Source: Bacillota bacterium (lineage in GTDB: Bacteria; Bacillota; SHA-98; UBA4971). From it: a stretch of 52,693 nucleotides of DNA. Both the position numbers and the translations under genes were made by a program. A model generated the notes under the pieces. The model worked only from the letters and a program-made list of their open reading frames with translations, searched no databases and had not been told where the DNA came from. Every line of letters begins with the position of its first letter. The stretch's first letter is position 1. Location of the stretch: NCBI GenBank assembly GCA_024653485.1, contig JANLFY010000019.1:1-52693 (forward strand), read 5' to 3'. Below are positions 7,445 to 44,129 of this stretch, piece after piece.

Positions 7445-8098
7445 TCACTCGTCCATTGGTTTTTCTCCGACGGCATAAGCGTCCTCACAGTAGAAGAAGT
7501 GTCCAAGAATGCGGCCGACCTCGTGCCAGGCGGGAGTCTTCGCTTCTTCAGGGATCCCGCTCACCGTGTCTGTATCCCACCCCGCCTGGACGACGACAAA
7601 GCCGCAGTTCGTGAGGAGCAGCTTCAGCGCGTCAACGGGGTACGGGCGGACGTGTGATAGGTCCTTCCAGAAGTTCTCGGTTATCACGAAGAGATTCACC
7701 GGGTTTGGAGTGACTATCACTATCCGCCCCCCGGGAACGAGGGCTGCGTGACACAGCGACACGAGCGCCTCGGCATCGTCTGGAGCATAGTGCTCAATGA
7801 CGTGAGACATGAACACCCCATCATAGCACGCCCTGTGCTTTGGAAGGTGGACAAAGCCGTCATCGTTCACTACCTGAGTAAGCCCCTTCGCGGCGCAGTG
7901 TTCGACGGCGCGTGGGTCGATGTCGAGACCGAAACCCTGTTTGCCGTGTTCCTGAAGGATCTCCAGGAACTCCCCTCTTCCGCACCCAAGGTCGAGGATG
8001 CGCACGTGGGACGGGGCAAAGAAGTCGACGTACTTCCTCTGTATCGCCTTCACTCGTTGCTCGTCACCTCGAATCGTGCTGAGGTCCACGCGAGTCAC
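7445..8098 (-). CDS. Class I SAM-dependent methyltransferase
   Basis: A 217-aa Rossmann-fold methyltransferase. Motif I is ILDLGCGRGEFLEIL (about 34-48), followed by the acidic ribose-binding GLDIDPRAVE, and HVIEHY and LVPGGRIVIVTPNP supply motifs II-III. It resembles methyltransferases found beside glycosyltransferases in glycan clusters. It ends a four-gene operon: its GTG start at 8098 overlaps the stop of the glycosyltransferase fusion (GTGA), implying translational coupling. The acceptor is unknown; a sugar, lipid carrier or other product of the radical SAM and glycosyltransferase proteins is the contextual guess. Confidence 0.86.
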   Translation of the reverse strand: MTRVDLSTIRGDEQRVKAIQRKYVDFFAPSHVRILDLGCGRGEFLEILQEHGKQGFGLDIDPRAVEHCAAKGLTQVVNDDGFVHLPKHRACYDGVFMSHVIEHYAPDDAEALVSLCHAALVPGGRIVIVTPNPVNLFVITENFWKDLSHVRPYPVDALKLLLTNCGFVVVQAGWDTDTVSGIPEEAKTPAWHEVGRILGHFFYCEDAYAVGEKPMDE

Positions 8099-10050
8099 CC
8101 CTTCGAGTCCTTCCTTGTGTGGTCCAAGTCACCCAGACAGCAGCGCTTCTCGTTGCATGAAATGACGTCTTCGAGAGGTTCGAACCCTGGGTCGAACAAG
8201 TTTCCGATGGGTGGATCGCCGTTTCGCATTCTGGTCAGGCAGGCGTAAACCAGCCCCTCTCCGGTGACCACGAGATGCCGGCTGCCTGCGGTGCACGTGC
8301 AGGAGGTCGGTCCGTCCTCGAACGCGGATTGCCTATCCTGGGACACGACGCGTCTCATGAGTTCAACTTCGTCAGCTCTCGCGTCTTTGGGAGGGCCCTT
8401 GGCGTCGAAATCCCAGGGATCGATGTGTGCTCTCACGCCATGATCGCTGACAACGCGCGTTATGTCGTCGAGCACCCAAAGCACCGTGAGGTCCGCGACC
8501 AGGTTGACGACCACCGGAAAGCCACGCTTCTGAAGCAACAGGGCTTTTCCGAGAAGCCTATGCAGATTGACTGGAGTAGCCGGATCATAGCGCAGGGTGA
8601 CGCATTCACAACGGTGGGTCGCAATTGACTGGACGAACTCTATGACTTCGGATGACGCATCCGTGGTGAGAGCGATCTTCTTCCGAGGATCGAGAAGCTG
8701 AAGCGCGCGCACGAGTCCGGGCTCCGCGAGCGGGCTATGGCCGAGCACATCTACGATCCAGTCACCGCGAAGGCGCGACCACGCGTCGGCCCATTCCTCC
8801 GCGGAGAAGGGCGCCTTTCCGGCGCGCTCCTCAGGCAACCACAAGGCATGACACCAGCCACCTTCGCAGCTCCCGCACCTGCCATGGGTCCTGCACCCAT
8901 CCTCGTCGAACAGCCGCGTTTCGATCTCCTCCATGAACCTGGTCGCAAAACGTTCGATCGTGTATTCCTTTTCGATTCTGCGCCTTCCGGCCTCCCCGAA
9001 GTCCCTCGCGTCAGCCTCGTTTCCGAGGAGTCTGCCAAGCTGTTCCGCAATCTCCTCCGGTACGCAAGGATCGACGAGATAGCCCGTCATACCGTGTATC
9101 ACGGTCTCAGCTACTCCGCCGTGATTTGATCCCACCACCGGCACCCCATGGGCCATCGCCTCGAGTGGAACCAGGCCGAGTGGTTCATCTATCGGGACGT
9201 ACAAGACGATTCTCGCACCGTCGTAGAAGGAGCCAAGCTCGTCGTCAGTGAGGTAGCCCAGGAACTCAACGTTGTCCAATCGCAATTCCGAGACCAGTTG
9301 GCGCAATGCTCCCTCCATGTGCCCGGTGCCGACTACCTGAAGTGGGGTATCAGAGGGAGCCAAATTCCGATCCGCAAGCACTCTCATCGCCCGAATGGCG
9401 GCCCCGAGGTTCTTCTCTGGCGTTAGGCGGGACACCACTCTTATCGCGCTTCTTGCGCTTTCGGCGTTCATGGGCGGCCGTTTCTTCCTGGGGAGCGGCA
9501 CCCCGGGCGGACACGCGACAGCCTCTCGGCCGTAGACCAGCGACACGTTCCTGGCCGTGAACGCGCTGTTGGCGAGGATGAGATCCATGCCGGCGACGGC
9601 CTTCCTTTCCATCTCCTCAACCCGAGGATCCGGAGCGACCGTCGGGTACCTCCCGATGCCGTGCACGTCAGTTACCGCCCAGTGGATGTGCCTTGGGGGT
9701 TCCTCGCAGTACCACACCACCGGCGGGCACTTCTCTCCCAACCGGGACTTGGCCGCAGCTGCCCAGATGTATGACGGGTAGTTGTGCGGGTTCACGAGGT
9801 CATAGTCTTCCAACTCGGGGGCAAGGAGGTCCCCCACGCTTTGCCATACATCGACGTCGTAGATACCGTCGATCTCCATGTCCACGATATCAAACTCCTC
9901 GGGAGGGCTTCCCCAGAGGTCCCGCGAGTATCCTGCAGTGTATACGGACACTTGATGACCTCTTCTCGCGAGCTCCCGCGCGAGCCAGATCACTACGTTC
10001 TCGGCTCCGCCCTTCTGGTTCAGAGTCGGGTGCAAGATGCATATTCTCAT
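8095..10050 (-). CDS. GT4 glycosyltransferase fused to a degenerate radical-SAM/SPASM domain
   Basis: Residues 1 to about 380 are a GT-B glycosyltransferase family 4 domain: an N-terminal KGGAENVV nucleotide-sugar fold, RVVSRLTPEKN, and the EX7E catalytic motif in DEPLGLVPLEA (near 289-297). The last 270 residues align with both neighbouring radical SAM proteins: ADAWSRLRGDWIVDVLG matches ARAWNRIPGDLVIDITG, and CTAGSRHLVVTGEG and IGNLFDPGF match their SPASM region. The key radical SAM motifs are lost: CX3CX2C is replaced by CRTHGRCGSCEGGWC, GGEP by GHSP, and one SPASM cysteine by Gly. ATG 10050 is chosen for the GGGGAGG upstream. The tail may be a non-catalytic partner or peptide-binding domain. 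I know of no described protein with this architecture. Confidence 0.85.
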   Translation of the reverse strand: MRICILHPTLNQKGGAENVVIWLARELARRGHQVSVYTAGYSRDLWGSPPEEFDIVDMEIDGIYDVDVWQSVGDLLAPELEDYDLVNPHNYPSYIWAAAAKSRLGEKCPPVVWYCEEPPRHIHWAVTDVHGIGRYPTVAPDPRVEEMERKAVAGMDLILANSAFTARNVSLVYGREAVACPPGVPLPRKKRPPMNAESARSAIRVVSRLTPEKNLGAAIRAMRVLADRNLAPSDTPLQVVGTGHMEGALRQLVSELRLDNVEFLGYLTDDELGSFYDGARIVLYVPIDEPLGLVPLEAMAHGVPVVGSNHGGVAETVIHGMTGYLVDPCVPEEIAEQLGRLLGNEADARDFGEAGRRRIEKEYTIERFATRFMEEIETRLFDEDGCRTHGRCGSCEGGWCHALWLPEERAGKAPFSAEEWADAWSRLRGDWIVDVLGHSPLAEPGLVRALQLLDPRKKIALTTDASSEVIEFVQSIATHRCECVTLRYDPATPVNLHRLLGKALLLQKRGFPVVVNLVADLTVLWVLDDITRVVSDHGVRAHIDPWDFDAKGPPKDARADEVELMRRVVSQDRQSAFEDGPTSCTCTAGSRHLVVTGEGLVYACLTRMRNGDPPIGNLFDPGFEPLEDVISCNEKRCCLGDLDHTRKDSKG

Positions 10051-10093
10051 CGTCGCAGACCTCCCCACGTAGAGGCCTTCTCAGGGTCCTACA

Positions 10094-10125
10094 TGACTAC
10101 TTCAAGTCGTGACTACTTCAAGCCG
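10094..10125. repeat. 16-bp tandem duplication across the radical SAM stop codon
   Basis: Two copies of TGACTACTTCAAGYCG lie at 10094-10109 and 10110-10125. The second overlaps the end of the radical SAM gene (stop at 10118-10120 on the minus strand) and the first extends into the 67-bp spacer before the glycosyltransferase. Confidence 0.75.
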
Positions 10126-10933
10126 GGTGGCGGACCGTGTGATCCAAGTCGCAGTTCAGGCAGACCTTGGTCTCGCAGAAGATAGGCCGGTCAAGCAGGG
10201 CGAACTTCTCGTCGAAGATGTTGCCCAAGAAGTTTTCCAGCTCCCGCCCCTTGGAGAGACACGTGTACGCTTCGCCGTTTGGTATGACCACGAAGTACCC
10301 GCTGCCTGCGGTGCACATGTACCGGCCGGAAGCCTTCTCGTAGACACTCGTTCGGTCAGGGGCGACGTGTGCTGAGAGAAACACGTTTTCCGCCTCCGCG
10401 TACGTATAGAAGGGCTGGGGCCCTTGCCAGAACGGATCCACGTGGAACGGGATGCCTCGCTCCTGAAACGCCGCAGCGAGAGTGGGTATGAGCCACATCT
10501 GGCCGGGATGGGCCACGTAGTTCACTGACACCTTGAACCCTCTGTGCCTCAAGAGCAGAGCGTTGTTGAGAAACCGCTCGAAATTCCTTCCGGCAGAGGG
10601 ATGATAGGACATCGTCACGAGGACGCACTTGGATGGCTGGACGCGGTCAGAGAGCATCCGCGCGTCGAGGGTACCGTTCGTCGTGATGGCGCAACGTTTG
10701 TCTGACTCGAGCCTCTCAATCACCTCGATCAGGGAAGAGAACAGCCCGGGCTCCCCGCCGGTGATATCGATCACTAGATCGCCCGGAATCCTGTTCCATG
10801 CGCGCGCCCACTGCTCGGCGCTCGCCTCGGCCGCGGAGGGCCGGTCCAGCATCATCCTAGGGGGCGCCACCCCAAAGCAATAGGGGCACGCAAAGTTACA
10901 TTTCCACGTGACGTACCACACAGCGTGTCTCAT
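10118..10933 (-). CDS. Radical SAM/SPASM protein (second of two)
   Basis: A 271-aa radical SAM enzyme. The [4Fe-4S] motif CNFACPYC (near 12-19) binds SAM, GGEP follows in IDITGGEPGLF, and a C-terminal SPASM-like set of cysteines (CTAGS, YTCLS, IFCETKVCLNC) should hold an auxiliary cluster. The protein ends DLDHTVRHPA; the DxDH ending is shared with both neighbours. It is a close paralogue of the upstream gene (shared MRHAxW start, YHPS, GNIFD). ATG 10933 follows the upstream stop by 13 bases with a GGCGGTG site. Radical SAM/SPASM proteins modify peptides or small metabolites; no precursor peptide is recognised here and the substrate is unknown. Confidence 0.9.
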   Translation of the reverse strand: MRHAVWYVTWKCNFACPYCFGVAPPRMMLDRPSAAEASAEQWARAWNRIPGDLVIDITGGEPGLFSSLIEVIERLESDKRCAITTNGTLDARMLSDRVQPSKCVLVTMSYHPSAGRNFERFLNNALLLRHRGFKVSVNYVAHPGQMWLIPTLAAAFQERGIPFHVDPFWQGPQPFYTYAEAENVFLSAHVAPDRTSVYEKASGRYMCTAGSGYFVVIPNGEAYTCLSKGRELENFLGNIFDEKFALLDRPIFCETKVCLNCDLDHTVRHPA

Positions 10934-10946
10934 GAGAATTCACCGC

Positions 10947-11783
10947 CTACGCCTCGGCCACCCTCGAGGTGTGATCGTAGTCACAGGTAGCGCAGGCCAC
11001 GACCTCGCAGGCGACCCGTGACGTCGCGAGTCCGAAGTTGGGATCGAAGATGTTGCCGAAGCTGGGCATGCCATACAACCTTCTTGTAAGGCACTCGTAC
11101 GCCTCACCGTCAGGCATCACTACGAAGTGCCTGTCGCCCGCGTCGCACAAGAAGCGGCCGGCGCGCCGCTCCAAGATGTACCGGCGATCGTCAGGGACGT
11201 ACCGCCGCAGGAATTCCAGCTCCGCTTCGTTGTACGTGAAAGCGGGATTGCGGGGGTTCTGTCCGTATGGGTCTGCGTGAACGGGAACGCCGAAGTAACC
11301 AAAGATCTTCTCCAGCTTCGGGAAAAGCCACATCTGCTCAGGATACATGACGAAGTTCACGACGACTGGGTAACCCCTGTTCTTGAGACATAGGGCCTTG
11401 CCGACGAAATCATGCATGTTGTTCTGGTTTGATGGGTGATAGGATAGGGTGATGCTCACGCAGCGTTCCGGCGGCACAACTTGGATGAACTTGGCGATAT
11501 CGCCGGATGCGTTCGTGCTTATGGCTATCTTCTTGTCGGAGTCAAGGAGGGCGAAGAACTCGAACAGGCCTCTGTAGAGAAAGGGTTCTCCCCCGCTTAT
11601 GTCTATGAGTAGTTCCCCGGGGATCCTATTCCATGCAGCCGCACACTCTTGCGGCGACGGGAACTCCACGCCCTTGTAGAGGTCTTTGTACAAACGCTCC
11701 CAGCAGTATGGGCAGTCGAAATTGCACCTCACGGTCAGAAACCAGCTCGCGTGACGCATTTTCCCCATTGGACATCGAACCAC
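10947..11783 (-). CDS. Radical SAM/SPASM protein (first of two)
   Basis: The first gene of the radical SAM-glycosyltransferase-methyltransferase operon. CNFDCPYCWE gives the CX3CX2C motif, IDISGGEPFLY the SAM-binding GGEP, and CDAGDRHFVVMPDGEAYEC plus CEVVACATCDYDH the SPASM cysteines. All cluster ligands are present, so catalysis is expected. The start is uncertain: GTG 11783 follows GGAGGA at a longish distance, whereas ATG 11759 would give the same MRHAxW beginning as the paralogue. The gene is divergent from pgsB. Two tandem intact radical SAM enzymes plus a third degenerate copy in the next gene suggest a multi-component modification machine. Confidence 0.9.
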   Translation of the reverse strand: MVRCPMGKMRHASWFLTVRCNFDCPYCWERLYKDLYKGVEFPSPQECAAAWNRIPGELLIDISGGEPFLYRGLFEFFALLDSDKKIAISTNASGDIAKFIQVVPPERCVSITLSYHPSNQNNMHDFVGKALCLKNRGYPVVVNFVMYPEQMWLFPKLEKIFGYFGVPVHADPYGQNPRNPAFTYNEAELEFLRRYVPDDRRYILERRAGRFLCDAGDRHFVVMPDGEAYECLTRRLYGMPSFGNIFDPNFGLATSRVACEVVACATCDYDHTSRVAEA

Positions 11784-12059
11784 CCATTGCGATCATTCCT
11801 CCGGCGCACCTGCCTCGTGAGATCCGATTCGTCCCAGCCAGCGTCCGCCCTGGCAGGGTCGCGCCGCCTAGACCAAGACTATGCATGACCCGGCGGACTG
11901 GTGCACGTGGGTTTTCCGAAAGCCAATCGACGCGCGTCTCCCGCGACATCTCGTCGGAATCGGACGCGCACATCCGCCCCAAGTCCGCCCGCAGCCCCCC
12001 GGAAGGAGATCGAGAGCGCCATCGCGAAAGTCCCTGTCAAGGAGGGACACGGAGCTGCA

Positions 12060-13349
12060 ATGGCGTTTTTCGGGTTGTTGTGCGCGGGCATCGCGCTCGC
12101 GGGCATCTTCGAGAACCTCGTCCACGCAAGGAGGTTGCGCGCCATACCCGTGAGGATTCACGTCAACGGGACCCGCGGAAAGTCCACCACAACGCGCCTG
12201 ATAGCGGCGGGACTTCGCGCGGGGGGCCGGAGGGTGATAGCCAAGACGACGGGCACGGCAGCCAGCATCATCTGGGAGGACGGGTCCGAGGAGCCGCTGC
12301 GGAGAGAGAGGCGATTGGGCGGGCACGCGCAAGGGCAAGGGCCAGCGTCAACAGCGTGCGCTCAGGGATCAGGGCGAGAAGGGCGCGGACGTGGCCGAGG
12401 GCGGGCAAGCATTGCCGAGCAGATGAGGGTCGCCGCCCTCGCGGCGAGACGAGGTGTCGATGCGCTGGTGCTCGAGTGCATGGCGCTCGACCCCGAGAAC
12501 CAGTGGGTGTCGGAACACAAGATGATCCGCTCGACGATAGGGGTCATCACGAACGTCCGCGACGACCACCTTGACGTGATGGGACCGCGACTGAGAGACG
12601 CAGCTCGCGCTCTCTCGCTTACCATACCCCGCAGGGGGGTCCTCGTGACGGCGGAGCGAGCCTTTGCCGGCGTCCTCGAGGAGCGGGCGCGGGCGGTGGG
12701 GGCTTCGGTGCACGTTGTAGACGGGTCGGCCGTCCCGGACGAGGTGAACGAGGCCTTTCCGTACGTGAGTTTCAAGGAAAACGTCGCGTGCGCCCTGAAA
12801 GCATGCGAACTCGCCGGGGTCCCGCGCGACGTGGCCATCTCCGGTATGCTTGCGGCCCGCGGCGACCCAGGGGTGATGCGCATACTCTCAATCAAGCGAG
12901 CCCGTGCCTCATACATCCTGGTCAACGCGTTTGCCGCCAACGACTCTACGTCAACTTCTCTCATATGGAGCCTCGTTCGCGAGTCTCTCGTGGAGAAGGG
13001 AGCGTTGCGAGACTCGCCTAGCGGAGTTCCCATCGCGGTCGTCATGAACAACCGAGCCGACCGCGTCCCGAGGATTCGAGAGCTTGCCCTCCTGGTGGCA
13101 AGGGAGATCAGACCTCTGAAGGTGTTCCTCGTGGGCGAAGCCGCGAGATTCGCCAAGGCTCAATTGGCCAGGAATGGAGTCGCGCTAGACTGCGTAACCG
13201 ATCTTACGGCTTTGCGCGAGCCCGAGGCGGTGCTGGACGCGATCGGCGCCTCGCTCCCGGGAGGCGCGGTGCTTTTCGCGATAGGCAACACCAAGGGCAT
13301 GGGGCAAAGACTCGCGGAGTTCTTCCAACGGAACGGTGAGGTGCTGTGA
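12060..13349 (+). CDS. pgsB: Poly-gamma-glutamate synthase PgsB/CapB
   Basis: An ATP-dependent amide ligase of the Mur-ligase type that polymerises glutamate through gamma-linkages at the inner face of the membrane, with PgsC. It has an N-terminal helix (1-20), the P-loop HVNGTRGKSTTTRL (34-47), KTTGTAASIIWEDG, and Mur-like ECMALDPENQWVSEHKMI and GVITNVRDDHLDVMG. At residues about 84-116 the usual short RR(x)nNIxEQ link is replaced by a Gly/Arg/Gln-rich stretch (RGRGRGRASIAEQ at its end) from repetitive DNA at 12309-12407. ATG 12060 matches the N-terminus of family members. pgsC starts within its stop codon (GTGA), so the genes are translationally coupled. Confidence 0.93.
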   Translation: MAFFGLLCAGIALAGIFENLVHARRLRAIPVRIHVNGTRGKSTTTRLIAAGLRAGGRRVIAKTTGTAASIIWEDGSEEPLRRERRLGGHAQGQGPASTACAQGSGREGRGRGRGRASIAEQMRVAALAARRGVDALVLECMALDPENQWVSEHKMIRSTIGVITNVRDDHLDVMGPRLRDAARALSLTIPRRGVLVTAERAFAGVLEERARAVGASVHVVDGSAVPDEVNEAFPYVSFKENVACALKACELAGVPRDVAISGMLAARGDPGVMRILSIKRARASYILVNAFAANDSTSTSLIWSLVRESLVEKGALRDSPSGVPIAVVMNNRADRVPRIRELALLVAREIRPLKVFLVGEAARFAKAQLARNGVALDCVTDLTALREPEAVLDAIGASLPGGAVLFAIGNTKGMGQRLAEFFQRNGEVL

Positions 13350-13786
13350 CCCTTTCACTCTCGATCGGGATCGGGCTTGTAGCCAGCTTCTTCTTTACCG
13401 AGGTCACAGGGCTTTATGGTGGAGGATTGGTCGTGCCTGGTTACATAGCCCTCTACCTGGACCAGCCTGCACGTGTCGCGGCCACACTCGCCCTTGCCCT
13501 CACCACGTACGCGGTCGTGTGGGCCGCTTCACACTTCATCATCATGTACGGGCGGCGGAGGTTCATGGCCATGGTGCTCGTGGCATTCTGGCTCGGCTGG
13601 CTTTTCGGGAAGCTGGGCATCGGGATGTATAGGGCCGGGGACGTCGGGCAGGAGTTCCGTGCCATAGGGTACATCATCCCGGGCCTCATCGCGAACGACG
13701 TGGCCAGGCAGGGAGTTGTTCGGACGTTCGCCGCGGTAGTATTCCTCTCCGCAGTAGTCCGACTTGCGCTGGTCCTCGTGAGGTGA
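13346..13786 (+). CDS. pgsC: Poly-gamma-glutamate synthesis membrane protein PgsC/CapC
   Basis: A 146-aa integral membrane protein with about four or five helices, the partner of PgsB in poly-gamma-glutamate synthesis. The N-terminal GLVASFFFTEVTGLYGGGLV and PGYIALYLDQPARV segments are characteristic of PgsC. The C-terminal half (GYIIPGLIANDVARQG) is also conserved in the family. The GTG start overlaps the pgsB stop by four bases. Ten bases separate it from pgsW. Confidence 0.93.
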   Translation: MTLSLSIGIGLVASFFFTEVTGLYGGGLVVPGYIALYLDQPARVAATLALALTTYAVVWAASHFIIMYGRRRFMAMVLVAFWLGWLFGKLGIGMYRAGDVGQEFRAIGYIIPGLIANDVARQGVVRTFAAVVFLSAVVRLALVLVR

Positions 13787-13796
13787 CCATGACACG

Positions 13797-14903
13797 ATGT
13801 CTGGGTGGGGAATGAGATCGGGCCGAGTGCCACCGGCGTTCGTTCTGCTTGCGGCCGTGGTGGCTCTAGGAGGGTTCTGGGTGGCTCGAGTGTCCGCCCC
13901 GGATGAGGTTTCCCTGCTTCCCTACAACGACGCGCAGATCGAGGCGGCCGAGCTCATGAGACGGTGCACCGAGGTCATAAGGGACCACCGACTCCGTTTG
14001 GGGCTCCCAATCGATCGTGAACTAGACCCTAACGAAACCGGGCTCATCGGGGATGAGTTCACTGACATCACAACCTCCGTTGGCAATCTCGAGGCCAAGC
14101 GGACGGCGACCAACCCGGCGTTCGCCGCCTTGATGGTTCGCTACTTCGAGGAGGCCGGCCTTCGACCCGGGGACGTGATCGCGGTCGGTGCAAGCGGTTC
14201 GTTCCCTGCCCTGATCATCGCAACGCTCTCGGCCGCGCGTGCCCTAGATCTGGAGCCCATCACCATATACTCAATCGGCGCGTCCATGTATGGCGCGACT
14301 CTTCCGGACTTCACGTTCGTGGACATGCTGGCGCTCTTGAATCAGGAGAGAGTGTTGCCCTACGCGCTGGCTGCCGTGTCTTTGGGGGGCGACAGGGACG
14401 CCGGCGAAGGCACCCTGTTCGTCGATGGAAAGCGTGTCATGGAAGAAATCGCGCGACGTGCGGGCGTCCAGGTGATCCGAGAAGATACCGTAGAGGGAAG
14501 CATCCGTCGAAGGCTCGAGGTCTATGGAGCGCTCGCCGCGGGACGGCCCATAAGGTGCTTTGTGAACCTCGGAGGAGCGACACCAAACTACGGGAATACC
14601 TTGTCTTCTCTCGAATTCCCCAACGGACTCGTCATGCGGCCGCCCATCATGTCCGCAGCCCCGGACCGCGGCCTCATCTTCGAATTCTCGGCCGCCGGCG
14701 TCCCGGTGATCAACTTGCTTGACGTGCGCGGACTCGCGCTCAGACACGGGCTTCCCGTCGACCCGGTGCCGCTGCCTCCCATCGGCGAAGGCCGTGTGTA
14801 CGAGACTGCCGGATACTCCCCGGCCGCTGCCGCTGTAGCCTTGATCCTGGGGTGCGCCGTGCTTTGCATGGGGGCTGTCGTGGGCGCGTCTCGGGGACGG
14901 TAG
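13797..14903 (+). CDS. pgsW: Poly-gamma-glutamate system protein PgsW
   Basis: A 368-aa protein with a TM anchor at each end (about 11-28 and 342-362) and an extracytoplasmic body. Sequence features such as GLIGDEFTDITTSVGNLEAKRT, ALMVRYFEEAG, VGASGSFPAL and CFVNLGGATPNYG fit the PgsW family, which accompanies pgsB and pgsC in Bacillota and others that lack a typical pgsA. Its exact activity is not established. ATG 13797 is used; ATG 13812 is possible. It is the last gene of the pgs operon and converges on the C69 peptidase genes. No pgsA/capA-type gene or pgsE is present in the window. Confidence 0.85.
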   Translation: MSGWGMRSGRVPPAFVLLAAVVALGGFWVARVSAPDEVSLLPYNDAQIEAAELMRRCTEVIRDHRLRLGLPIDRELDPNETGLIGDEFTDITTSVGNLEAKRTATNPAFAALMVRYFEEAGLRPGDVIAVGASGSFPALIIATLSAARALDLEPITIYSIGASMYGATLPDFTFVDMLALLNQERVLPYALAAVSLGGDRDAGEGTLFVDGKRVMEEIARRAGVQVIREDTVEGSIRRRLEVYGALAAGRPIRCFVNLGGATPNYGNTLSSLEFPNGLVMRPPIMSAAPDRGLIFEFSAAGVPVINLLDVRGLALRHGLPVDPVPLPPIGEGRVYETAGYSPAAAAVALILGCAVLCMGAVVGASRGR

Positions 14904-15079: not shown

Positions 15080-16675
15080 CTACTTGCCTGCTGGAGGCAC
15101 GATCTTTCCGAAGCCAACCGCTTTGAGCCATTCCTCCGGGTAGCCAACGGTCTTTAAGTTCACGTACCCGTCCTGGTACTTCACTATGAGTTGGTCGGCG
15201 AGCTCCCAGTAAGCGCGGACCACCCTGTCAGCCAGGTCGTTGGAGTAATTGGTCAGGTACTTGACGGCCAACGCTGGGTCGGTCTTGTAGAGCTCGAGGG
15301 CGGCTTTCTCCACCGCTGGCTGAAGGGCGAACGCCTCAGCCTCGAAGGCACCGGCGACTTTCTTGATGTCCTCCATCATGTAGCTATACTTGAGATCCGC
15401 GAAGTTCGACACGAAGTTGAATGCCCACCACGCGGATTGCCTGTCGAACACGTCACGCCGCCCGATCTGGAACGAAAGCGGGACAGACGTGGCGCCGCAG
15501 TAGAACGGGACGTAGCACGTTGAATGCGGCGCGTCCTCGCCGAACCAGGTTACGCCGCCTATCGGGTTGGGGAGCCAGTTCCTGGACTGCGTCACGATGC
15601 TGTACGAGCAGCGGAACATGGATATCGCGCGCTCCCACTCGCCCAACGTGGCCGGAGTGGCGTACCTGTTGGGGTTGCCGAACGGCCCCGCCGCGAGGCC
15701 CTTGGTGAGGTCGAACTCGGTGCCCTCGTAGTGGTCGCGCTTGATGGCCATGAGGTCCGCGACAGACACCTTCTTGTCAGGCTTGATTGTGAACGGGTAG
15801 GTCTTCGCCCACGGATCTAGGTTCAGCGACGGCGCGAGGAGGCTCAACACTCGCCACTCACGGCGGCTGTTGTAGTAGGAGTCTTTAGGACCATAGGCCT
15901 CGCAGAACACGAAGGGACCCTTCGAGGGATCCCACCATCCCATCTCCTTCGCAAAGTCGAACACGTTCTTTGAGTACATATAGTTGTCCGGATCGTCAGT
16001 CTTTATCTCGCGGATGCGGCTGCGGTTCGCGCTCACGCCGATCTCGTCGTCGGGGATCCTCACCGCCGCCCAGATGGCCCCCTTCTGCAGAGGGCCAGCC
16101 CCGAATATCTCGAAGAACCAGGCTTCGTTCGGGTCGCACACCGTGAGGCACTCGCCCGCATCACCGTATCCGTATTCCTCGGCAAGCGACCCCATGATCT
16201 GTATGGCCTCTCTGGCAGTCCTCGCCCGCTCGAGGGCTACCCTCTGCAGCTCCCAGATGAGGAACCAGCCATCGGGATTCTGGAGCTCCCGCCGGCCCCC
16301 GATGGTCGTCTCGCCCATCATCACCTGGTTCTCGTTCATGAACGGGTAAGCGATGTCAAAGTACGTGTACGTCTTGGCAACCTGGGGAATCTCCCCGACC
16401 TTCTCCGCCTGGGGCATGTCCGCGCCCTGGCCGCCGCCCTTCATGACGGGGCGCATGGACCCGGGTTCATGCGTCTTCCCGGGAACCACGGTTATACGGA
16501 ACTCGTACCTCCCATCGCACGTGTGAGTGGTCATCACCGATCCGTCGACCGACGCGTTCTTCCCGACCACGATGGACGTGCATGCCAGAGCGGACGCCGC
16601 GAAGGCAGACACGGCCACGACCACGCCAAGGACTATGGCCGCTAGACGGATTCTCATCAGCTTCGCTCTCATCAT
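15080..16675 (-). CDS. Secreted family C69 dipeptidase (paralogue 1)
   Basis: A 531-aa Ntn-hydrolase of peptidase family C69, expected to release dipeptides or amino acids from short peptides. A signal peptide (1-31) ends in ALA directly before Cys32 of ACTSIVVGK; that Cys is the expected N-terminal nucleophile once exposed. Family signatures GSVMTTHTCDG, MGETTIGGRREL, GECLTVCDPNEAWFFEI and GVSANRSRI are intact. ATG 16675 has AGGGAGG seven bases upstream. It is the last gene of the first transport-hydrolase operon, 31 bp behind a second C69 gene. The substrate is unknown; poly-gamma-glutamate fragments or peptidoglycan peptides fit the context. Confidence 0.92.
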   Translation of the reverse strand: MMRAKLMRIRLAAIVLGVVVAVSAFAASALACTSIVVGKNASVDGSVMTTHTCDGRYEFRITVVPGKTHEPGSMRPVMKGGGQGADMPQAEKVGEIPQVAKTYTYFDIAYPFMNENQVMMGETTIGGRRELQNPDGWFLIWELQRVALERARTAREAIQIMGSLAEEYGYGDAGECLTVCDPNEAWFFEIFGAGPLQKGAIWAAVRIPDDEIGVSANRSRIREIKTDDPDNYMYSKNVFDFAKEMGWWDPSKGPFVFCEAYGPKDSYYNSRREWRVLSLLAPSLNLDPWAKTYPFTIKPDKKVSVADLMAIKRDHYEGTEFDLTKGLAAGPFGNPNRYATPATLGEWERAISMFRCSYSIVTQSRNWLPNPIGGVTWFGEDAPHSTCYVPFYCGATSVPLSFQIGRRDVFDRQSAWWAFNFVSNFADLKYSYMMEDIKKVAGAFEAEAFALQPAVEKAALELYKTDPALAVKYLTNYSNDLADRVVRAYWELADQLIVKYQDGYVNLKTVGYPEEWLKAVGFGKIVPPAGK

Positions 16676-16706
16676 GTCGTCGCCTCCCTGCTTCTAGGGT
16701 CTAGTG

Positions 16707-18404
16707 TCACTTCTTCGACGGTATGGTGCTGAGCCCGAAACCAACTTCCTTGAGCCACCACTCCGGATATCCGACACTCTGCATCTTAAAGGTGTCATCG
16801 CCATACACGTACCCGTCTGCATACCTCCCCACGAGTTGGCTTGCGAGTTTCCAATAGGCGTCTACCACCCGGTTCGCGCAACTGTTCGTGTAGTTGGTGA
16901 TGAAAGCACGCGCAAGTCCGGCATCCTGCCTGAACAGGTCGATCGCGGTCTTCTCTATCACCGGCTGCATCGCGAAGAACTCGGCTTCGAGAGGATCGCG
17001 CACCGCCTTTATGTCCTCAATCATGTAGGAGTACTTGAGGTCGGCCCAGTTCGAGACGAAGTTGAACGCCCACCATGCTGACTCCCTGCTGAACACGTCG
17101 TACGAGCCGCCCCTCATGCCTACGTCGAACGACTTCGGGAGCTTCGTCGCGCCGCAGTATATCGGGATGTAGCACGTGGAATGTGGCGCGTCGTACCCAA
17201 ACCACGTCATACCCCCTATCCAGTCGGGCATGTTCTTCCTGGCCACCACTATAGTCGAGTACACCGCGCGGAACATGGAAATGGCCCGCTCCCACCCGGA
17301 GCTTCCGGGCGGGTTGACCTTGCTCGGCGTTGGATAGCGGTTCGGCGTCCCAAACGGCCCGGCCGCCATCCCGACCGTGAGGTCGTACTCCGTCCCCTCG
17401 TAGTGATCCCTGTTTATCTTCATGATGTCCTGCGGTGTCACGGGCTTGTCGGGTTTCACCGAGAACGGATACCTCTCCGCGTTCGGATCGAGGTTGAGCG
17501 ACGGGGCCAGCATGCTCAAGACCCTCCACTCACGTCGAGCGTTATACGCGGAGTAATCCTTGTACCCGTACGTCTCGTACACCTTGAACTCCTTGCCGCT
17601 CTTGGGATCCCACCAGCCCATCTCCTCAGCCAGGGAGAAGATGTTCGGAGACGCCATGAAGTGGTCCGGGTCACTCAAGTCGATTGCCCCGATCCTGCTT
17701 CGGTTGGCGCTCACCCCGACGTGCCCGTCGGGTATGCGCGCCGCGGCCCACACGGCGCCCGGCTTTCCGCAGCCCGGCGTCCAGAAAGGCCCGGGTCCGA
17801 ATATCTCGAACATCCATGCCTCGTTGGGATCTATGACCGTGAGACACTCGCCCCCGATCGCGTACCCGTACGTCTCCGCGAGCTCTCCCATGATCTTGAT
17901 TGCCTCGCGCGCGCTAGACGCACGCTCGAGCGCGATCCTTTGCAGCTCGACGAGGTCAAACCACCCGCTCGGGTTGGTGAGCTCCCGCCGCCCTCCGATG
18001 GTAGTCTCGCCTATTCCCACCTGTTTTTCGTTCTGGAAGGAGTACGACGAGTTGATGTAGGCGAACGTGTGAGGTACCTGCGGGATCTGCCCCGGTGACT
18101 TGATCGGGTTTGCCAGCTGCCCGTACGGACCGAAATCCGTGTTGCGCAGAACCGGACGCATCGCTCCGGCGGGCCAGTCGGCGGCGGGCACAACCTTGAC
18201 GTGGAAGGTGTCCGTCCCCGAGTCATCGGTGTGCGTAGTCATGCAGGATCCATCGGCCGAAGCCCCCGGCGTGACCGGGATCGACGTGCAGGCAAGGGCC
18301 GTCCACGAGACCGTCGCCACCACCATGATTGCGGCTATGAAGATGGCGGCCAAAGGCAAAATCTGCAGACGAGCGTAAGCCCTTCTCCCTCCGAGCAACG
18401 ACAT
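16707..18404 (-). CDS. Secreted family C69 dipeptidase (paralogue 2)
   Basis: A 565-aa paralogue of the downstream gene. The signal peptide ends SWTALA, and Cys39 of CTSIPVTPGASADGS is the predicted nucleophile. MGE is replaced by GIGETTIGGRREL, and GECLTVIDPNEAWMFEIFGPG and GVSANRSRIG are conserved. Compared with paralogue 1 it has short insertions, for example around FWTPGCGKPG. ATG 18404 is set by GGGAGGGA five bases upstream; a longer in-frame reading back to 18455 lacks a site. It lies between the M14-like hydrolase gene (192 bp upstream) and C69 paralogue 1. Confidence 0.92.
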   Translation of the reverse strand: MSLLGGRRAYARLQILPLAAIFIAAIMVVATVSWTALACTSIPVTPGASADGSCMTTHTDDSGTDTFHVKVVPAADWPAGAMRPVLRNTDFGPYGQLANPIKSPGQIPQVPHTFAYINSSYSFQNEKQVGIGETTIGGRRELTNPSGWFDLVELQRIALERASSAREAIKIMGELAETYGYAIGGECLTVIDPNEAWMFEIFGPGPFWTPGCGKPGAVWAAARIPDGHVGVSANRSRIGAIDLSDPDHFMASPNIFSLAEEMGWWDPKSGKEFKVYETYGYKDYSAYNARREWRVLSMLAPSLNLDPNAERYPFSVKPDKPVTPQDIMKINRDHYEGTEYDLTVGMAAGPFGTPNRYPTPSKVNPPGSSGWERAISMFRAVYSTIVVARKNMPDWIGGMTWFGYDAPHSTCYIPIYCGATKLPKSFDVGMRGGSYDVFSRESAWWAFNFVSNWADLKYSYMIEDIKAVRDPLEAEFFAMQPVIEKTAIDLFRQDAGLARAFITNYTNSCANRVVDAYWKLASQLVGRYADGYVYGDDTFKMQSVGYPEWWLKEVGFGLSTIPSKK

Positions 18405-18596
18405 GTTTCTCCCTCCCGTGTCCTTCATTGTGCTGAGTGGGTTCGATTCGCACAAGTACGGGGCGCGTCGTGCCGCGCCATCCTCGTCATCTCAGCATAT
18501 CAGCTTAGTCCCATCGGCTCACTTGTGCACCTCAGTCACACGCCTCAACCATGAGCTTCAGGCGTGTATCTCAGTGGGGTGCCTCAGGCGTGCGCC

Positions 18597-22203: not shown

Positions 22204-23763
22204 TCAGAACGTCTTCTCGTCGTACTTGGTGATCAGGGTCTCCGCGAGTCTCCAGAAGAGGTCGACTGCCTTTGCACAGCGGTCCGCCGTGTATTCGGTG
22301 AGGAACTTGACTGCCTCGGCCGGATCCTTCGCGTATAGCTCCACGGCCTGCTTCTCGATATCCGCCTGCTTTGCGAATTGCTCCGCCTCGAACGGGTCTC
22401 TTACAGCCCTGAGATCCACGATCATCTCCTGGTATCTTCGGTTCACGAGGTTGTCTACGAAGTTGAAGGCCCACCAAGCAGATTCCTTGTAGTTATCGAG
22501 ACTGAACTTGGTTCTGTCGTTGACCGCGTAGTTGGCCGGCAAGCTGCTCACGCCGGCGTAGATCGGCACGTACACGCTGGTGTCGGGGTTGTTCAGCCCG
22601 AACCAGCACAGCCCGCCCACGCCGTTGGGCAGCCATCCCCTCGCCTGAAGGATCGTGTGGTACGAGCACCGGGGGATGGCGATGTTCCTCTCGTTGGGCA
22701 GGTCCAAGAGAGCGATCATGTCCGTTCCGGCGTGCGGCGTCGCGAACGGGCTCTTCACCCAGTTGCCCTTGGAATCCCGGACGAACCAGTCGGGGTCGTT
22801 GGCCTTGTCGAATTCGGTGCCTTCCATAGTGTCACGGTAAATCTTCATCATGTCTTGTATGGTGATCTTCCGCTCAGCCTTCACCGTGAACGGGAAGCGC
22901 GAACCGTTTGGATCGAGCTTGAGGGACGGAGCAGCCCAGGACAGCACACGCCACTCGCGCCTTCTGGATCCAAGCGAGTCTTTGGGGTTGTATGCTTCGT
23001 AGAAAAGGAACTCCTGGCCGCTCTTGGGATCCCACCAACCGTTCTCCTCGGCGACTGCAAAAACGTTCTTGGAGAACATGTAGTTGTCCGGATCGTTCGG
23101 GTCTATCTTGCCGATCCGGGACCGGTTGGCCGAAACGCCCACGTGTCCCTCGGGGATGCGCACCGCCGCCCATATCGCGCCCTTCTTGAAGGCGCCGGGG
23201 GGCATGATCTCGAAGTGCCAGACCTCATTCGGGTCTCCGACGGTCAGGCACTCGCCTGCGTCTACGTACCCGTATTGTTCTGCCGCAGCACCCATGAGCT
23301 GGATGGCTTCCCGGGCCGTCTTTGCGCCTTGGAGGCCGATTATCTGAAGGGTCTCGATGTACATTATCCCTTCAGTGGACTGGAGCTCCGGCCTGTTCCC
23401 GATCGTGGTTTCGCCCATTATGACCTGGTGTTCGTTCATGTACGGATAGGCCGCATAGAACCAGGTATAGGTCGTCTCGGGATACGGGAACTCACCGATC
23501 TTCGTGGGCGGGGTTCTGTCGGAATGCAGGAGGCCTTTGTAGACAGGCATCATTTCGCCGGGTTTGTGCTTTGCACCTGGTACGACCCACGTGCGTGCGT
23601 CGTACCACCCGTCGCACGTGTGAGCGGTCATGACGGATCCATCGGCTGATGCTTCCTTGCTGACCGGAATGGAGGTACACGCATACGAAGGAAACGCGAA
23701 AGCAAACACGAGGAGCGGGACCACAATCATCAGTGGGCAGACCAACCTCGCACGCGATCTCAC
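22204..23763 (-). CDS. Secreted family C69 dipeptidase (paralogue 3)
   Basis: A 519-aa C69 Ntn-hydrolase. The signal peptide ends FPSYA before Cys29 of CTSIPVSKEASADGS. MGETTIGNRPEL, GECLTVGDPNEVWHFEI and GVSANRSRIG mark the family. It differs from its paralogues in a longer segment around DPDWFVRDSKGNWVKSPF and in ending soon after LFWRLAETLITKYDEKTF, so the usual C-terminal GYPEEWLKxVGF element is absent. GTG 23763 has GGAGGTG eight bases upstream. A hairpin terminator downstream makes it a separate transcription unit from the DUF6305 operon. Confidence 0.92.
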   Translation of the reverse strand: MRSRARLVCPLMIVVPLLVFAFAFPSYACTSIPVSKEASADGSVMTAHTCDGWYDARTWVVPGAKHKPGEMMPVYKGLLHSDRTPPTKIGEFPYPETTYTWFYAAYPYMNEHQVIMGETTIGNRPELQSTEGIMYIETLQIIGLQGAKTAREAIQLMGAAAEQYGYVDAGECLTVGDPNEVWHFEIMPPGAFKKGAIWAAVRIPEGHVGVSANRSRIGKIDPNDPDNYMFSKNVFAVAEENGWWDPKSGQEFLFYEAYNPKDSLGSRRREWRVLSWAAPSLKLDPNGSRFPFTVKAERKITIQDMMKIYRDTMEGTEFDKANDPDWFVRDSKGNWVKSPFATPHAGTDMIALLDLPNERNIAIPRCSYHTILQARGWLPNGVGGLCWFGLNNPDTSVYVPIYAGVSSLPANYAVNDRTKFSLDNYKESAWWAFNFVDNLVNRRYQEMIVDLRAVRDPFEAEQFAKQADIEKQAVELYAKDPAEAVKFLTEYTADRCAKAVDLFWRLAETLITKYDEKTF

Positions 23764-26334: not shown

Positions 26335-27924
26335 TCACGGAACAGGTGTCTTGGTGAATCCGATGATGTCGTTCCACCACTGTGGGAACGGAGTCGTCTT
26401 CATGTAGATCGATCCGAACGCGTACTTGCCGAGCAGCCTGTCGCCGAGGGCCTTCCAGTCTTCGTGCCACGCCACCGCGTTGGTGTACGCAAACTGGTCG
26501 ATCAGGTTGATAGCCGCCGCGCGGTCAGACTTGTACAGCTCCGCAGCGGCCTCTTGGATCATCGGAACGACCTTGTAAAGCATCTCCATCCTGGGCTGCC
26601 GGAACTCATGGATGTCCTTCGCAGCCGCCTGATATCTCATGTGGGCTATCTCCTGCACGTAAGTGTTCACCCACCAACCCGAATCCCGTCTAAACTCCTC
26701 GTACCTGCTGCCAATCTCGTAGAACTTGGGCAGCGCCTTCATGATCGGCCAAAGCGGAGTCAGGTAAGTGGTATCAGGAGCGCCATAGCCGAACCAGCTG
26801 ACGCCCTTGATAGGATCAGGCAGCCAGCTCTTTACCTGGCCGATGTGGATGTAGCAAGTCCTGTGCATGTTGATGGACCGCTCGTAGGCGCCGCCGCGCG
26901 GGTCTGAGTTGGGGTAGCGAAGCGGACTGCCCCACGGCCCGGCCGCAGGCCCTTTGGAGAGATCGTACTCCGTTCCTTGATAGTAGTCGGCCTTGATGTC
27001 CCAGATGTCCTGGACCGTCAGCTTGCGCTCTGGCTTCACGGAAAGCGGGAACCTCGTATCATGAGGCGAGAGCTTGAGCGAAGGCGCCACCAAGTCGAAC
27101 GCTCGCCACTCGCGGCGCGTGGAGTACACGCCTTCGTAAGGAGCGTAGTTCTCATACACGAGGAAAGGCTTGCCGGACTTCGGATCGTACCAGCCCTTCT
27201 CGACGGCGAAGGACACGATGTTCGGGGAAGCCATCACGTTCTCTTTGTCGTCGAGGTTGATTTCGCCGATTCGAGCGCGGTTGGCAGCAACGAAGAAATG
27301 GTCGTCCGGGATTCGGACCGCGGCCCATATGTCCCGACCGTAGAACTCGGCGACCCAGACTTCGTTGCCATCGGTGATGTTCATGGTTTCGCCAGGCCCG
27401 GTCCATCCGTACTGCTCAACGAGGTCGCCCATTATGCGGACCGCCTCGCGAGCCGTCGAGGCGCGCTCGAGAGCGATGTCCTGTGCGAACCAGCAGTCTA
27501 TTAGGCCGTCGCTGTTCTTGACCATCGTATCGTAAATGTTCTGGTTGCGAGGCGTGCTGCGGTCGTAGCTGAAAGTGCTCTCCCCCATCGCGACGCCTTT
27601 CTCGTTCATGAAGGAATAACGAGAATGGAAATAGCGGTATGTGTGCTTCGCTTGGGGCATAGTTCCGACAACAGTGCCGCCCTCCGGCGTATGACCGTCG
27701 ACCACTATGTTCCGCGTCGATCCCTCGGGCCAGTCATTCTCCGGTATGATCCACAGGCGAAAGTCGGCGACGCTGGAGTCGTCGTTGTGAGTTATGATCG
27801 TGGATCCATCGGCCATCGCCTCTTTGCCGACGGCCACAATGGTACACGCGGAGGTGATGGACGCGAGGAACATTACGACAGCGACTACAACGGAGAGCGC
27901 AAACGTCACCTTCTGCCGCTTCAT
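26335..27924 (-). CDS. Secreted family C69 dipeptidase (paralogue 4)
   Basis: A 529-aa C69 Ntn-hydrolase and the most diverged of the four. The signal peptide ends SITSA before Cys27 of CTIVAVGKEAMADGS. MGESTFSYDRS replaces the usual METTIGGRRE-type element, GETMNITDGNEVWVAEF replaces the GECLTV segment, and FFVAANRARIGE keeps the A/S-NR-A/S-R core. The C-terminus differs, ending IIGFTKTPVP. ATG 27924 has GGGGAGGAG ten bases upstream. It closes the second DUF6305-permease-M14-C69 cassette, 116 bp behind the M14-like gene. Divergence suggests a different peptide specificity from the other three. Confidence 0.9.
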   Translation of the reverse strand: MKRQKVTFALSVVVAVVMFLASITSACTIVAVGKEAMADGSTIITHNDDSSVADFRLWIIPENDWPEGSTRNIVVDGHTPEGGTVVGTMPQAKHTYRYFHSRYSFMNEKGVAMGESTFSYDRSTPRNQNIYDTMVKNSDGLIDCWFAQDIALERASTAREAVRIMGDLVEQYGWTGPGETMNITDGNEVWVAEFYGRDIWAAVRIPDDHFFVAANRARIGEINLDDKENVMASPNIVSFAVEKGWYDPKSGKPFLVYENYAPYEGVYSTRREWRAFDLVAPSLKLSPHDTRFPLSVKPERKLTVQDIWDIKADYYQGTEYDLSKGPAAGPWGSPLRYPNSDPRGGAYERSINMHRTCYIHIGQVKSWLPDPIKGVSWFGYGAPDTTYLTPLWPIMKALPKFYEIGSRYEEFRRDSGWWVNTYVQEIAHMRYQAAAKDIHEFRQPRMEMLYKVVPMIQEAAAELYKSDRAAAINLIDQFAYTNAVAWHEDWKALGDRLLGKYAFGSIYMKTTPFPQWWNDIIGFTKTPVP

Positions 27925-28040
27925 GTATCCAACACTCCTCCCCATAGTTTGCGTTCAGGTCGTCATCCGAGCCACCGTAAAACCAGACGATGCCTTGCGT
28001 TCGTGCGTCAGTCCAGGCTTGATTTCGGTCATCACCCCTT

Positions 28041-39018: not shown

Positions 39019-42000
39019 CTAAGGACTATGAACCTCAACCTCGTGTGCGACCTTCAAGCCTGCTATTGCTACCTGCAACACGATGCGCTCGAGTTTGGCT
39101 TTCATCGTTGCGGGGATCTGGGTCTTGCTGACAACCTCCGCAAAACGCAACAAGCCGTCAACTGTGCTGTACACGATGTCGGGTCGCTTTGTGCACTTTA
39201 CTAGCCCCTCCGTCACGGTGGATACTGCCCTATTGACCCATATCTCTGTAACATCAGGTCTTGCCTTCAGGGCTGCCACAAGCGAAGTGATTTTCGCCCA
39301 GTGTTCCGGAGAGCCGTGTTGCTTGCCGCTATCGTGCACCATGACAGGTCCAGCCACGGCTGCAAGTAGGCCTAGATCCAGACCTGTCTGCTGGATTCGA
39401 ACGAACGGCTCCCACGTATTATCCCAGAACGACATGAAGTCTAGGTTCAGTGAACGTAACCAAGAGGAAACGCCGGTTTCTGATGCTTCAACCGCTGCGG
39501 TGGCATTCTCCCGAAGCGCGTCGAGGACCTGATTCCACTCCTCCTCTGGCCAGCCCCCGCCTCCCGCGCCTGCCTCTGCGGCCATACCTGACGGGTCTAC
39601 GTATCGTAAGGGATTAAGGGCACAATATGCATACGGATTCGGCCCCTCACCCAGGGGATCGGGGCTCATAAACCTTCCTACCTCGGGATCGTACAACCTT
39701 GCTCCGAAGTAGTACAGCCCAGTCTCCGCATCCTCGGGCTTCCCGGTGAACTTGTGCACATCCAGCCCCGCAAGCGTCCCCTCCGCCGTCACCGTGAGCC
39801 CAAACGGCTCGTATTCGTACCGCGCCACCACCTCGCCGGAGGAGTCCGTCACGGCACGTATGGAGCCCACAAGGTCGGTGTGGAAGTAGAATGTCCCGTA
39901 CTGCCCCTGCGGCAGCGGTGGGTCTCCGATGCCTGTGTGCGTCACCACCTTCGCAAGGTGCCGGCCGCTCGCCACGATGTACTTGGTGACCTTCACCCCG
40001 TCCGTCTCATACACTATGTCGTTGCCAAGGTACAGGCTGACTCGGGTTGTGCCTCCGGAGGTAGCCGAGATCCTCCTACCGAAGGCGTCGTAGACATAAC
40101 GCGCGGTTTCGGTCCCTCCGACTTTGACCTGCGCGAGTCTTCGGGCCCCATTATAGAGATACTCCGTCGTGGTACCCGATGCCTGCTTCCGTGTGAGCCG
40201 ACCGTACTTGCCGTACCCGTATGTGGCATTCCCTGCCGAGGCGAGGTAGTTGCCAGGACTGTAGGCGTAGCTCTTCGGCACCCCGCCATCCCAGGCCTCG
40301 GATAGCCTGTTGCCGACCTTGTCGATGGTCCGAGTAAGCCTTCCGAGAGCGTCATACCTGTACTGAGTGTAGAGGGCAGGGTCGCCTGCGTCCTCGGAAA
40401 TCCTCCTGCCCCTTGCGTCATAGGTGTAGGTATGGACTGGCTCCGTCGTCCCGGGTAGATCGGCCGATGTGGGGTTATCCCATAGATCGTAGCCGTAAGT
40501 AGTCACCTGCCCCACAGCGTCGGTGACCTGGACGAGCCTGTCGAGGAGATCGTACCGGTACCTTGTCGTCGCGACCGTCTCGGGGCTTTGCGCGACGAGC
40601 TCCTCCACCTTCACCAGCCTTCCTGCCGCGTCATACCCCCGCCTGGTCCAGTTCGCGTTGGAGTCTATCGCTTTTTCGTATCTTATGGCGCCGTCCGGGT
40701 CGCTCGCGAGGACGCCGTACTCGAAGGCGTGGACCGCCCCGTCGGCATAGGTGACCCCGGTCTTTCTCCGGAACGCGTCGTAATTGTAGCTCGTCCTGTG
40801 CCCTTCGGCATCCTCTACTGCGGAGAGCCCTCCGAGGGAGTTGTAGAACGCCTTCTCCACCGACTTCACTACGCCGCCAAGAGGGCGCCTGAGCTCGACG
40901 AATCTCCCCAGGGGATCGTACACCTCTGTCAAGGTGTTTTGGTTTTCGTCTCTTACCGTAACCGTTCGACTGACGTCATCGTATGCCCAGGTCTTGCTCG
41001 ACGTCACTCCTCCCACGGCGGGATAGGTGGCCTGGACTAGGCGCCCCACGGAGTCGTACGTGTACCGGTTCGATGAGCTTGTCGTCTGGTCGCGCGTGCC
41101 GTATTCTGTTGTCCTGCCGAAGAAGTCGTAGCTCGCGAAGGTGGTGATGGTGGATGTGGAGCCGTCGGCCTTCTGGACGGTGGTGCTGCTTGTGATCGGA
41201 TAGGCGTTGTACTGCGAATCGTAAGTGAACCCCGTGCTCTCGGTGCTTCCGTCAGGGTGGCGGAACGTCACCTGGGTCATGTTGCCGGGGTAGCTTGTGC
41301 TATAGCCATACTCGATAGTAGAAGTGATGCCTCTCGGCAGCCACATGAGCTCGCGCCCTGTGACCTGGGCGGAGCTTACCCGCACGCTCGACCCGAAAGC
41401 GCCGGTATAGCCCACATACACCCGGAACTCATAGTAGCCAGGAGAGAGCGAGATGTTGAACGTGCAGGTACCCGACGCTGACGAGAAGAGATATGACCCG
41501 TGGTGATGGTTGGCATAATATGTCCACGTAGTCGTCCCAACGGGTCTATAGTAGACCGTGTAGTCAACGGGCTGTCCGGGCCAGGCGGCAAACCAGCTCG
41601 TCTTGATCGTGGCGGAATGGATCCTCTTGCCCGGAGTCCAGACCCATTCCCTCCCGGTATACATCGAAGGGCTCGTCGGCCCGGTGTAGGTCACTGTAGG
41701 CCCCTCTCCGAGATATCCGACAAGGGCAGTCTCTTTCGTGACGTTTCGTTTGGCCTCATCGAGCGTATAGGATGTATGCCGGTAGTACTCTACTGAGTTC
41801 ACAGTCTCCAAGAATTCGCTCTTGTGAACCGGGAGGTGGTACGGCAATTCGTATTCAAACTCGGTGCGCCTTCCGAGAGAATCTCGCTCTTCCATCAGGT
41901 CTTTATACGAGTCCCACTTGTAGCTCACGGTGCTCGTCCGGACGGTGGTGCCCTTGATGAACTTGGTCGTTTCAGTGCTTGGGACCTTGTAGGCATAGTA

Positions 42001-44103: not shown

Positions 44104-44129
44104 GGCAGGACCCTCCTCACATGTCTTTC

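Follow-up and report, generated by a model that had tools for sequence, protein, structure and literature searches.

The third gene of a four-gene operon in a Bacillota genome encodes a fusion protein in which an active-looking GT4 glycosyltransferase is followed by a degenerate radical SAM domain. With moderate confidence, we regard this domain as a catalytically inactive paralogue of the radical SAM proteins encoded by the two genes directly upstream, most likely serving as a docking or substrate-holding module. The window, that is, the whole stretch of DNA that was analysed, comprises 52,693 nucleotides (contig JANLFY010000019.1 of assembly GCA_024653485.1), and all positions refer to it. 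The degenerate domain is called the tail below, and the two upstream proteins are designated rSAM-A and rSAM-B.

Organization of the operon

The genes of the operon follow each other on the minus strand in the order rSAM, rSAM, GT4-pseudo-rSAM, methyltransferase, with the following features:

10950..11783, minus strand: rSAM-A, 278 aa, intact twitch-type radical SAM protein with CNFDCPYC, GGEP and five C-terminal Cys (PF04055, E 5.1e-07)
10121..10933, minus strand: rSAM-B, 271 aa, intact twitch-type radical SAM protein with CNFACPYC, GGEP and five C-terminal Cys (PF04055, E 5.9e-11)
8914..10068, minus strand: GT4 glycosyltransferase domain (PF00534, E 3.2e-33; PF13439, E 9.4e-16), EX7E kept (E295...E303)
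8851..8895, minus strand: Cys-rich junction C392-X5-C398-X2-C401-X4-C406, located where beta-1 and the SAM-cluster loop would be expected
8098..8895, minus strand: degenerate radical SAM/twitch domain (the tail), residues 392-657, assigned by homology, profile and models
8731..8742, minus strand: GHSP (443-446), where alignment leads one to expect the SAM-binding GGEP
8113..8295, minus strand: twitch-like end with C592, C610, C638, C643 and C644; the counterpart of rSAM-A C267 is missing
7445..8098, minus strand: class I SAM-dependent methyltransferase, 217 aa (PF13489, E 5.4e-18)

Both rSAM-A and rSAM-B carry the CX3CX2C motif, GGEP and the five C-terminal cysteines of an intact twitch radical SAM protein. 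The fusion gene is one open frame on the minus strand from 8095 to 10068, in which the last codon before the stop ends at 8098, and encodes 657 aa. The GTG at 10068 is probably too early as its initiation codon, and translation may instead begin with the ATG at 10050, which follows GGGGAGG. Residues 1-385 make up the GT4 domain, which on sequence grounds belongs to this family by its EX7E motif (E295-X7-E303) and by two Pfam domains above their cut-offs (PF00534 with 115 bits against 26.4, PF13439 with 58.7 bits against 28.5). As far as its sequence can tell, this is an active-looking glycosyltransferase.

The sequence CTTGAAGTAGTCA forms a direct repeat of two copies at window 10094-10122, spanning the rSAM-B stop codon and the gap upstream of the GT4 gene. 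A set of Mur-ligase-like/CapB, CapC, and PgsW-like genes (11901-14903) adjoins the operon in divergent orientation and lies near several Peptidase_C69-type paralogues (15080-18455, 22204-23763, and 26335-27945). Elsewhere in the window, positions 100-950 hold spacer-separated repeats resembling a CRISPR array (translated as FNPRLRAGGD etc. in several frames), and positions 39019-44133 encode an RHS-repeat protein of 1704 aa. PADLOC returned no confident anti-phage defence system, and a non-systematic look at the small ORFs made no precursor-like gene of a RiPP system evident.

Common descent of the tail with rSAM-A and rSAM-B

The original prediction placed a pseudo-radical-SAM domain at 8095-8890, and the domain was indeed found there in frame, running from C392 (8895) to the stop codon (8095). 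Its identity is 38% to rSAM-A (E 9e-51) and 34% to rSAM-B (E 1.2e-41), and residues 405-652 score 179 bits against a profile built from 14 intact members of the family. Two of these members come from the window and the other 12 from viral contigs, and the set was used for both the alignment and the profile. The motifs in which a resemblance to the neighbours had been noticed do correspond, with AWSRLRGD facing AWNRIPGD and IGNLFDP facing LGNIFDE.

A lack of structural similarity to a radical SAM barrel had been named as the finding that would speak against this assignment. Structure prediction of the tail alone gave the radical SAM barrel fold in two AlphaFold models, m6be2f2556aeb (pLDDT 73.8, pTM 0.76) and m1203e8cdd720 (pLDDT 79.7, pTM 0.79). 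The models aligned with SkfB (Z 15.3, 3.6 A, 233 residues) and BlsE (Z 15.0, 3.4 A, 246 residues); SuiB, PqqE, MoaA, and viperin also aligned, the matches in this set lying at about Z 12-15 over about 200-250 residues, and BtrN gave Z 10-11. Since the top rows were tied, no single enzyme was singled out as the structural match of the tail. Sequence and models thus agree in giving the tail the partial beta/alpha barrel and the ancestry of the radical SAM proteins.

In a tree built without outgroups (a version with distant outgroups was uninformative), the tail, rSAM-A, and rSAM-B were split from the phage clade with SH-aLRT 98.7 and UFBoot 99. Because the three split together from the phage members, they look like copies that arose in one lineage. 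The branching order among them was weak (80/73), and the tail had the longest branch (1.30, vs. 0.58 for rSAM-A and 0.96 for rSAM-B).

Catalytic residues lost and retained in the tail

The proposed losses were all confirmed by the alignment: CX3CX2C is missing, GGEP is replaced by GHSP (443-446), and one of the five twitch cysteines, corresponding to rSAM-A C267, is gone. The pattern C...C..C occurs nowhere in the fusion protein, which leaves the tail without the radical SAM cluster motif. The SAM contacts, formed by GGE on strand 2 and by residues of strands 3-4, are also absent, with GHSP, TTD, and RYDPA in the tail vs. GGEP, TTN, and S[YF]HP[ST] in the intact members. In terms of substitutions, GGEP became GHSP, TTN became TTD, S-x-H-P became R-x-D-P, and PEQ became LTV.

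The tail departs from the intact members at 13 of the 37 columns that are invariant across all 14, while each intact member compared with the other 13 shows 0-3 departures; this invariant set is partly inflated because some of the scans selected intact motifs, which affects the losses on strands 3-5 little. The losses are clustered before rSAM-A residue 162, in the half that lies toward the N-terminus and binds SAM (Fisher p = 0.014, or p = 0.0007 with the three cluster cysteines counted as lost). What the tail retains, judged from the aligned residues, is the HxDP of strand 6, N143 and V145 of strand 5 (rSAM-A numbers), the lower barrel, and most of the twitch end. Residues on the substrate side are kept only in part, the PEQ after strand 5 being gone, which counts against the reading that we prefer below. 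A hidden frameshift restoring CX3CX2C was considered and rejected, as reading the junction in another frame gives stop codons and does not bring back the motif, and the downstream homology stays in one frame.

The cysteine string CRTHGRCGSCEGGWC had been proposed as a remaining site for an auxiliary cluster. This part of the prediction did not hold, since the alignment puts the string at the junction between GT4 and barrel, at the position of the SAM-cluster loop, and its role as a leftover twitch site was rejected on the same grounds. Two alignments of the junction were obtained. In the first, which is gapless, WC is matched with YC and C406 falls on the third cluster Cys, based on a 15-residue spacing to SAEEW that agrees with rSAM-A and the viral relative L024. 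In the second, CHALW is matched with RHAVW of strand 1, and a 22-residue deletion removes the whole cluster loop. Model residues 1-32 are below pLDDT 50 in both AlphaFold models, and strand 1 is placed differently in each.

The first alignment, with C406 as the third cluster Cys, would favour a tail that is still an active radical SAM enzyme using a non-canonical junction motif (CX5CX2C or CX2CX4C). Rare radical SAM enzymes with other cysteine spacings exist, such as HmdB and ThiC. We nevertheless consider such activity very improbable in view of the four substitutions at GGEP, SxHP, TTN, and PEQ and of strand 1, which is unrecognisable in a region of low confidence in both models.

The tail might also be an iron-sulphur module, whose twitch cysteines (with C644 replacing the lost one) and/or four-Cys junction hold a cluster that exchanges electrons with the neighbouring radical enzymes. 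The auxiliary-type cysteines C592, C610, C638, and C643 are retained, with the extra C644 beside C643, and in C592-X12-G605-X4-C610 the spacing between the outer cysteines equals that of C213-C231 in the family. Twitch clusters have four Cys ligands in BtrN and three visible ones in SkfB (PMC6231123), which also counts for this explanation. However, the second Cys of the final CX2C pair (rSAM-A C264/C267) has been lost, and the Pfam SPASM model scores 14.6 bits on the tail, under the cut-off of 21.5. Overall, we hold an iron-sulphur module to be fairly unlikely.

Evidence for selection on the tail

The prediction that the domain has been kept for a non-catalytic job agrees with several signs of selection, namely the open frame, the codon pattern, the translational coupling, and the retained core. 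The differences between the tail and rSAM-A at the three codon positions were 0.50/0.36/0.67, the second positions being the most conserved. When drift without selection was simulated, the frame remained free of stops in 0.6% of the runs (P = 0.006) at 43% amino-acid identity, and in 0/1000 runs at 30% identity. The TGA stop of the tail overlaps the GTG start of the methyltransferase gene (GTGA), and loss of frame in the tail could therefore also affect the methyltransferase gene. This overlap could be a partial alternative reason for the open frame, but not for the conservation of residues. Taken together, the open frame, the codon pattern, and the GTGA overlap argue against simple decay of the tail.

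The competing explanation by decay is that a duplicated radical SAM gene was fused to the GT4 gene by chance and has since drifted without a function. The faster evolution of the tail, visible in its long branch, its occurrence in one genome only, and the overlapping methyltransferase start, which could partly hold the frame open, are all in its favour. On the other hand, 266 codons are stop-free, the second codon positions are the most conserved, and the core is retained, while drift reaching 38% identity would almost surely break the frame. We thus consider a functionless relic unlikely.

Search for further fusions

In this analysis, a single genome yielded the fusion. Of the 17 class genomes searched, the 16 others contained neither a relative of the tail nor the four-gene operon. 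The LiaF and CapB flanks were non-adjacent in the sister genomes examined. When rSAM-A or the family profile was run against 398 genomes from the phylum, one weak, motif-intact relative and no fusion came up, and plasmids yielded neither a fusion nor a relative of the tail. Pattern scans of 84,980 genomes, which are insensitive at 30-40% identity, revealed neither a fusion nor a relative of the tail, and those of viral contigs no GT4-tail fusion; degenerate viral relatives would escape, because several of the viral scans used motif-bearing patterns. GT4 homologues carrying a tail with an intact CX3CX2C, the second finding that would have counted against the prediction, did not turn up, and neither did a second GT4 with this tail. 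In the open literature, we found no report of a pseudo-radical SAM protein and no radical SAM/GT fusion.

Since the genome is a draft of 41 contigs and no second fusion was found, a misjoin of the GT4 gene to an unrelated gene during assembly has to be weighed. This is extremely unlikely, as the tail is most closely related to its two upstream neighbours within the operon, there is no break in composition, and the junction is internal to one contig.

Phage-borne relatives and their cassettes

The other members of the family come from uncultured viral contigs, with viral status taken from the IMG/VR classification, and occur with glycosyltransferase genes, in many cases flanked by the major capsid gene on one side and a separate GT4 on the other. 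In L024-L029, L039, L040, and L138-L140, the radical SAM gene adjoins a separate GT4-like gene, whose product was above the Pfam cut-offs in all five cases tested (L024, L025, L026, L029, and L040). The family profile scores for L024-L029, L039, and L040 were 236-312 bits. A major capsid protein gene precedes the radical SAM gene in L024 (PF05065, E 1.8e-47), and a head-tail connector gene (PF05135) comes after the GT4 gene in L026. Further cassette genes encode LicD, a cytidylyltransferase, and an acetyltransferase in L025, as well as methyltransferases in L026 (weak) and L027. In L010-L018, the radical SAM gene is accompanied either by genes for GT25 enzymes and methyltransferases or by one that fuses a Mannosyl_trans3 glycosyltransferase to an FkbM methyltransferase; this fusion, of 570-590 aa, lies upstream of the radical SAM gene at L011:2198-3913 and L018:2653-4410.

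The GT4 cassettes are located at L024:4635-8303, L025:4627-8299, L026:1863-6512, L040:4164-8559, and L138:818-4602, with the conserved order major capsid, (LicD, cytidylyltransferase, methyltransferase or GT2-like), twitch radical SAM, GT4, head-tail connector. Such a cassette suggests radical-modified glycans on virions. Among cultured phages, no full-length family member was found, and distant radical SAM proteins were seen in Campylobacter phages. As in the window, the phage cassettes place the same radical SAM family beside a GT4, but they carry a single, intact radical SAM gene, their GT4 is a gene of its own from a distant subfamily, and they lie among structural genes. The window GT4 is related to the phage GT4 only distantly (best E 5e-11), and the phage loci are therefore an analogy rather than orthologous synteny.

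Comparison with known systems

Like the twitch/SPASM enzymes BtrN, MoaA, SkfB, BlsE, PqqE, and SuiB, the tail has a partial barrel and a twitch-like C-terminal end (Z 10-15, about 195-250 residues). Unlike them, it has neither the SAM-cluster motif nor GGE, is short of one auxiliary Cys, and is fused to a GT4; the identity is about 13-16%. Twitch domains and their cluster ligation have been described (PMC6231123; PMC9012708), and BtrN, which dehydrogenates an aminocyclitol, comes closest in the type of substrate (PMC9012708).

The pseudo-SAM/SPASM proteins of NCBIfam (TIGR04347) are, like the tail, radical-SAM-like and named as being without the catalytic motif, whereas they stand alone with no GT4 attached. 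Given this family, a dead radical SAM protein has a precedent. Pseudo-SAM/SPASM proteins occur in systems with active radical SAM proteins; TIGR04150 belongs to the GG-Bacteroidales peptide system, which also has a glycosyltransferase, TIGR04157. TIGR04347 matches rSAM-B weakly, with 23 bits (cut-off 525), and is not among the best 25 of 48 families for the fusion protein, and TIGR04157 gives the window GT4 a score of 56.5 (cut-off 400). The top NCBIfam match of rSAM-A and rSAM-B is the STM4011 family (NF038073), with 41.7 and 52.5 bits, far under the cut-off of 200. The two proteins do not qualify as prokaryotic viperins (pVip), which they match only within residues 5-115 (36-39 bits), and NF038283 gives 29-35 bits on them (cut-off 180).

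Proposed role of the tail

In the reading that we prefer, a dead docking or substrate-holding module, the tail arose in one lineage with rSAM-A and rSAM-B and no longer has the loop for the SAM cluster or the residues of strands 2 to 4 that bind SAM. It may pair with rSAM-A/B, or bind the same glycan or glycoconjugate, and one substrate would thus receive glycosyl transfer by the GT4, radical modification by rSAM-A/B, and downstream methylation. The two activities that the phage relatives hold as adjacent separate genes would here be joined via a dead copy of the radical enzyme. Judged by the neighbours, oxidation or a similar change on a sugar would fit as the radical SAM chemistry.

A broader proposal is offered tentatively. 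In it, a radical SAM domain that is no longer active has taken on protein docking or substrate channelling and physically couples the GT4 to the two working radical SAM enzymes, within an operon for glycan modification; the enzyme family is carried mainly by phages, which pair radical SAM and glycosyltransferase beside the capsid gene, perhaps for radical-modified virion glycans.

Kinases and proteases provide familiar examples of pseudoenzymes; for radical SAM enzymes, such descriptions are, to our knowledge, scarce. With an inactive domain of this type attached to another class of enzyme and two live copies encoded next to it, the fusion would be a clean test case for the role of such domains. 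It also connects glycosyl transfer with a radical SAM family that is uncharacterised and carried largely by phages, and the production of radical-modified glycans by phages and bacteria thereby becomes a testable question.
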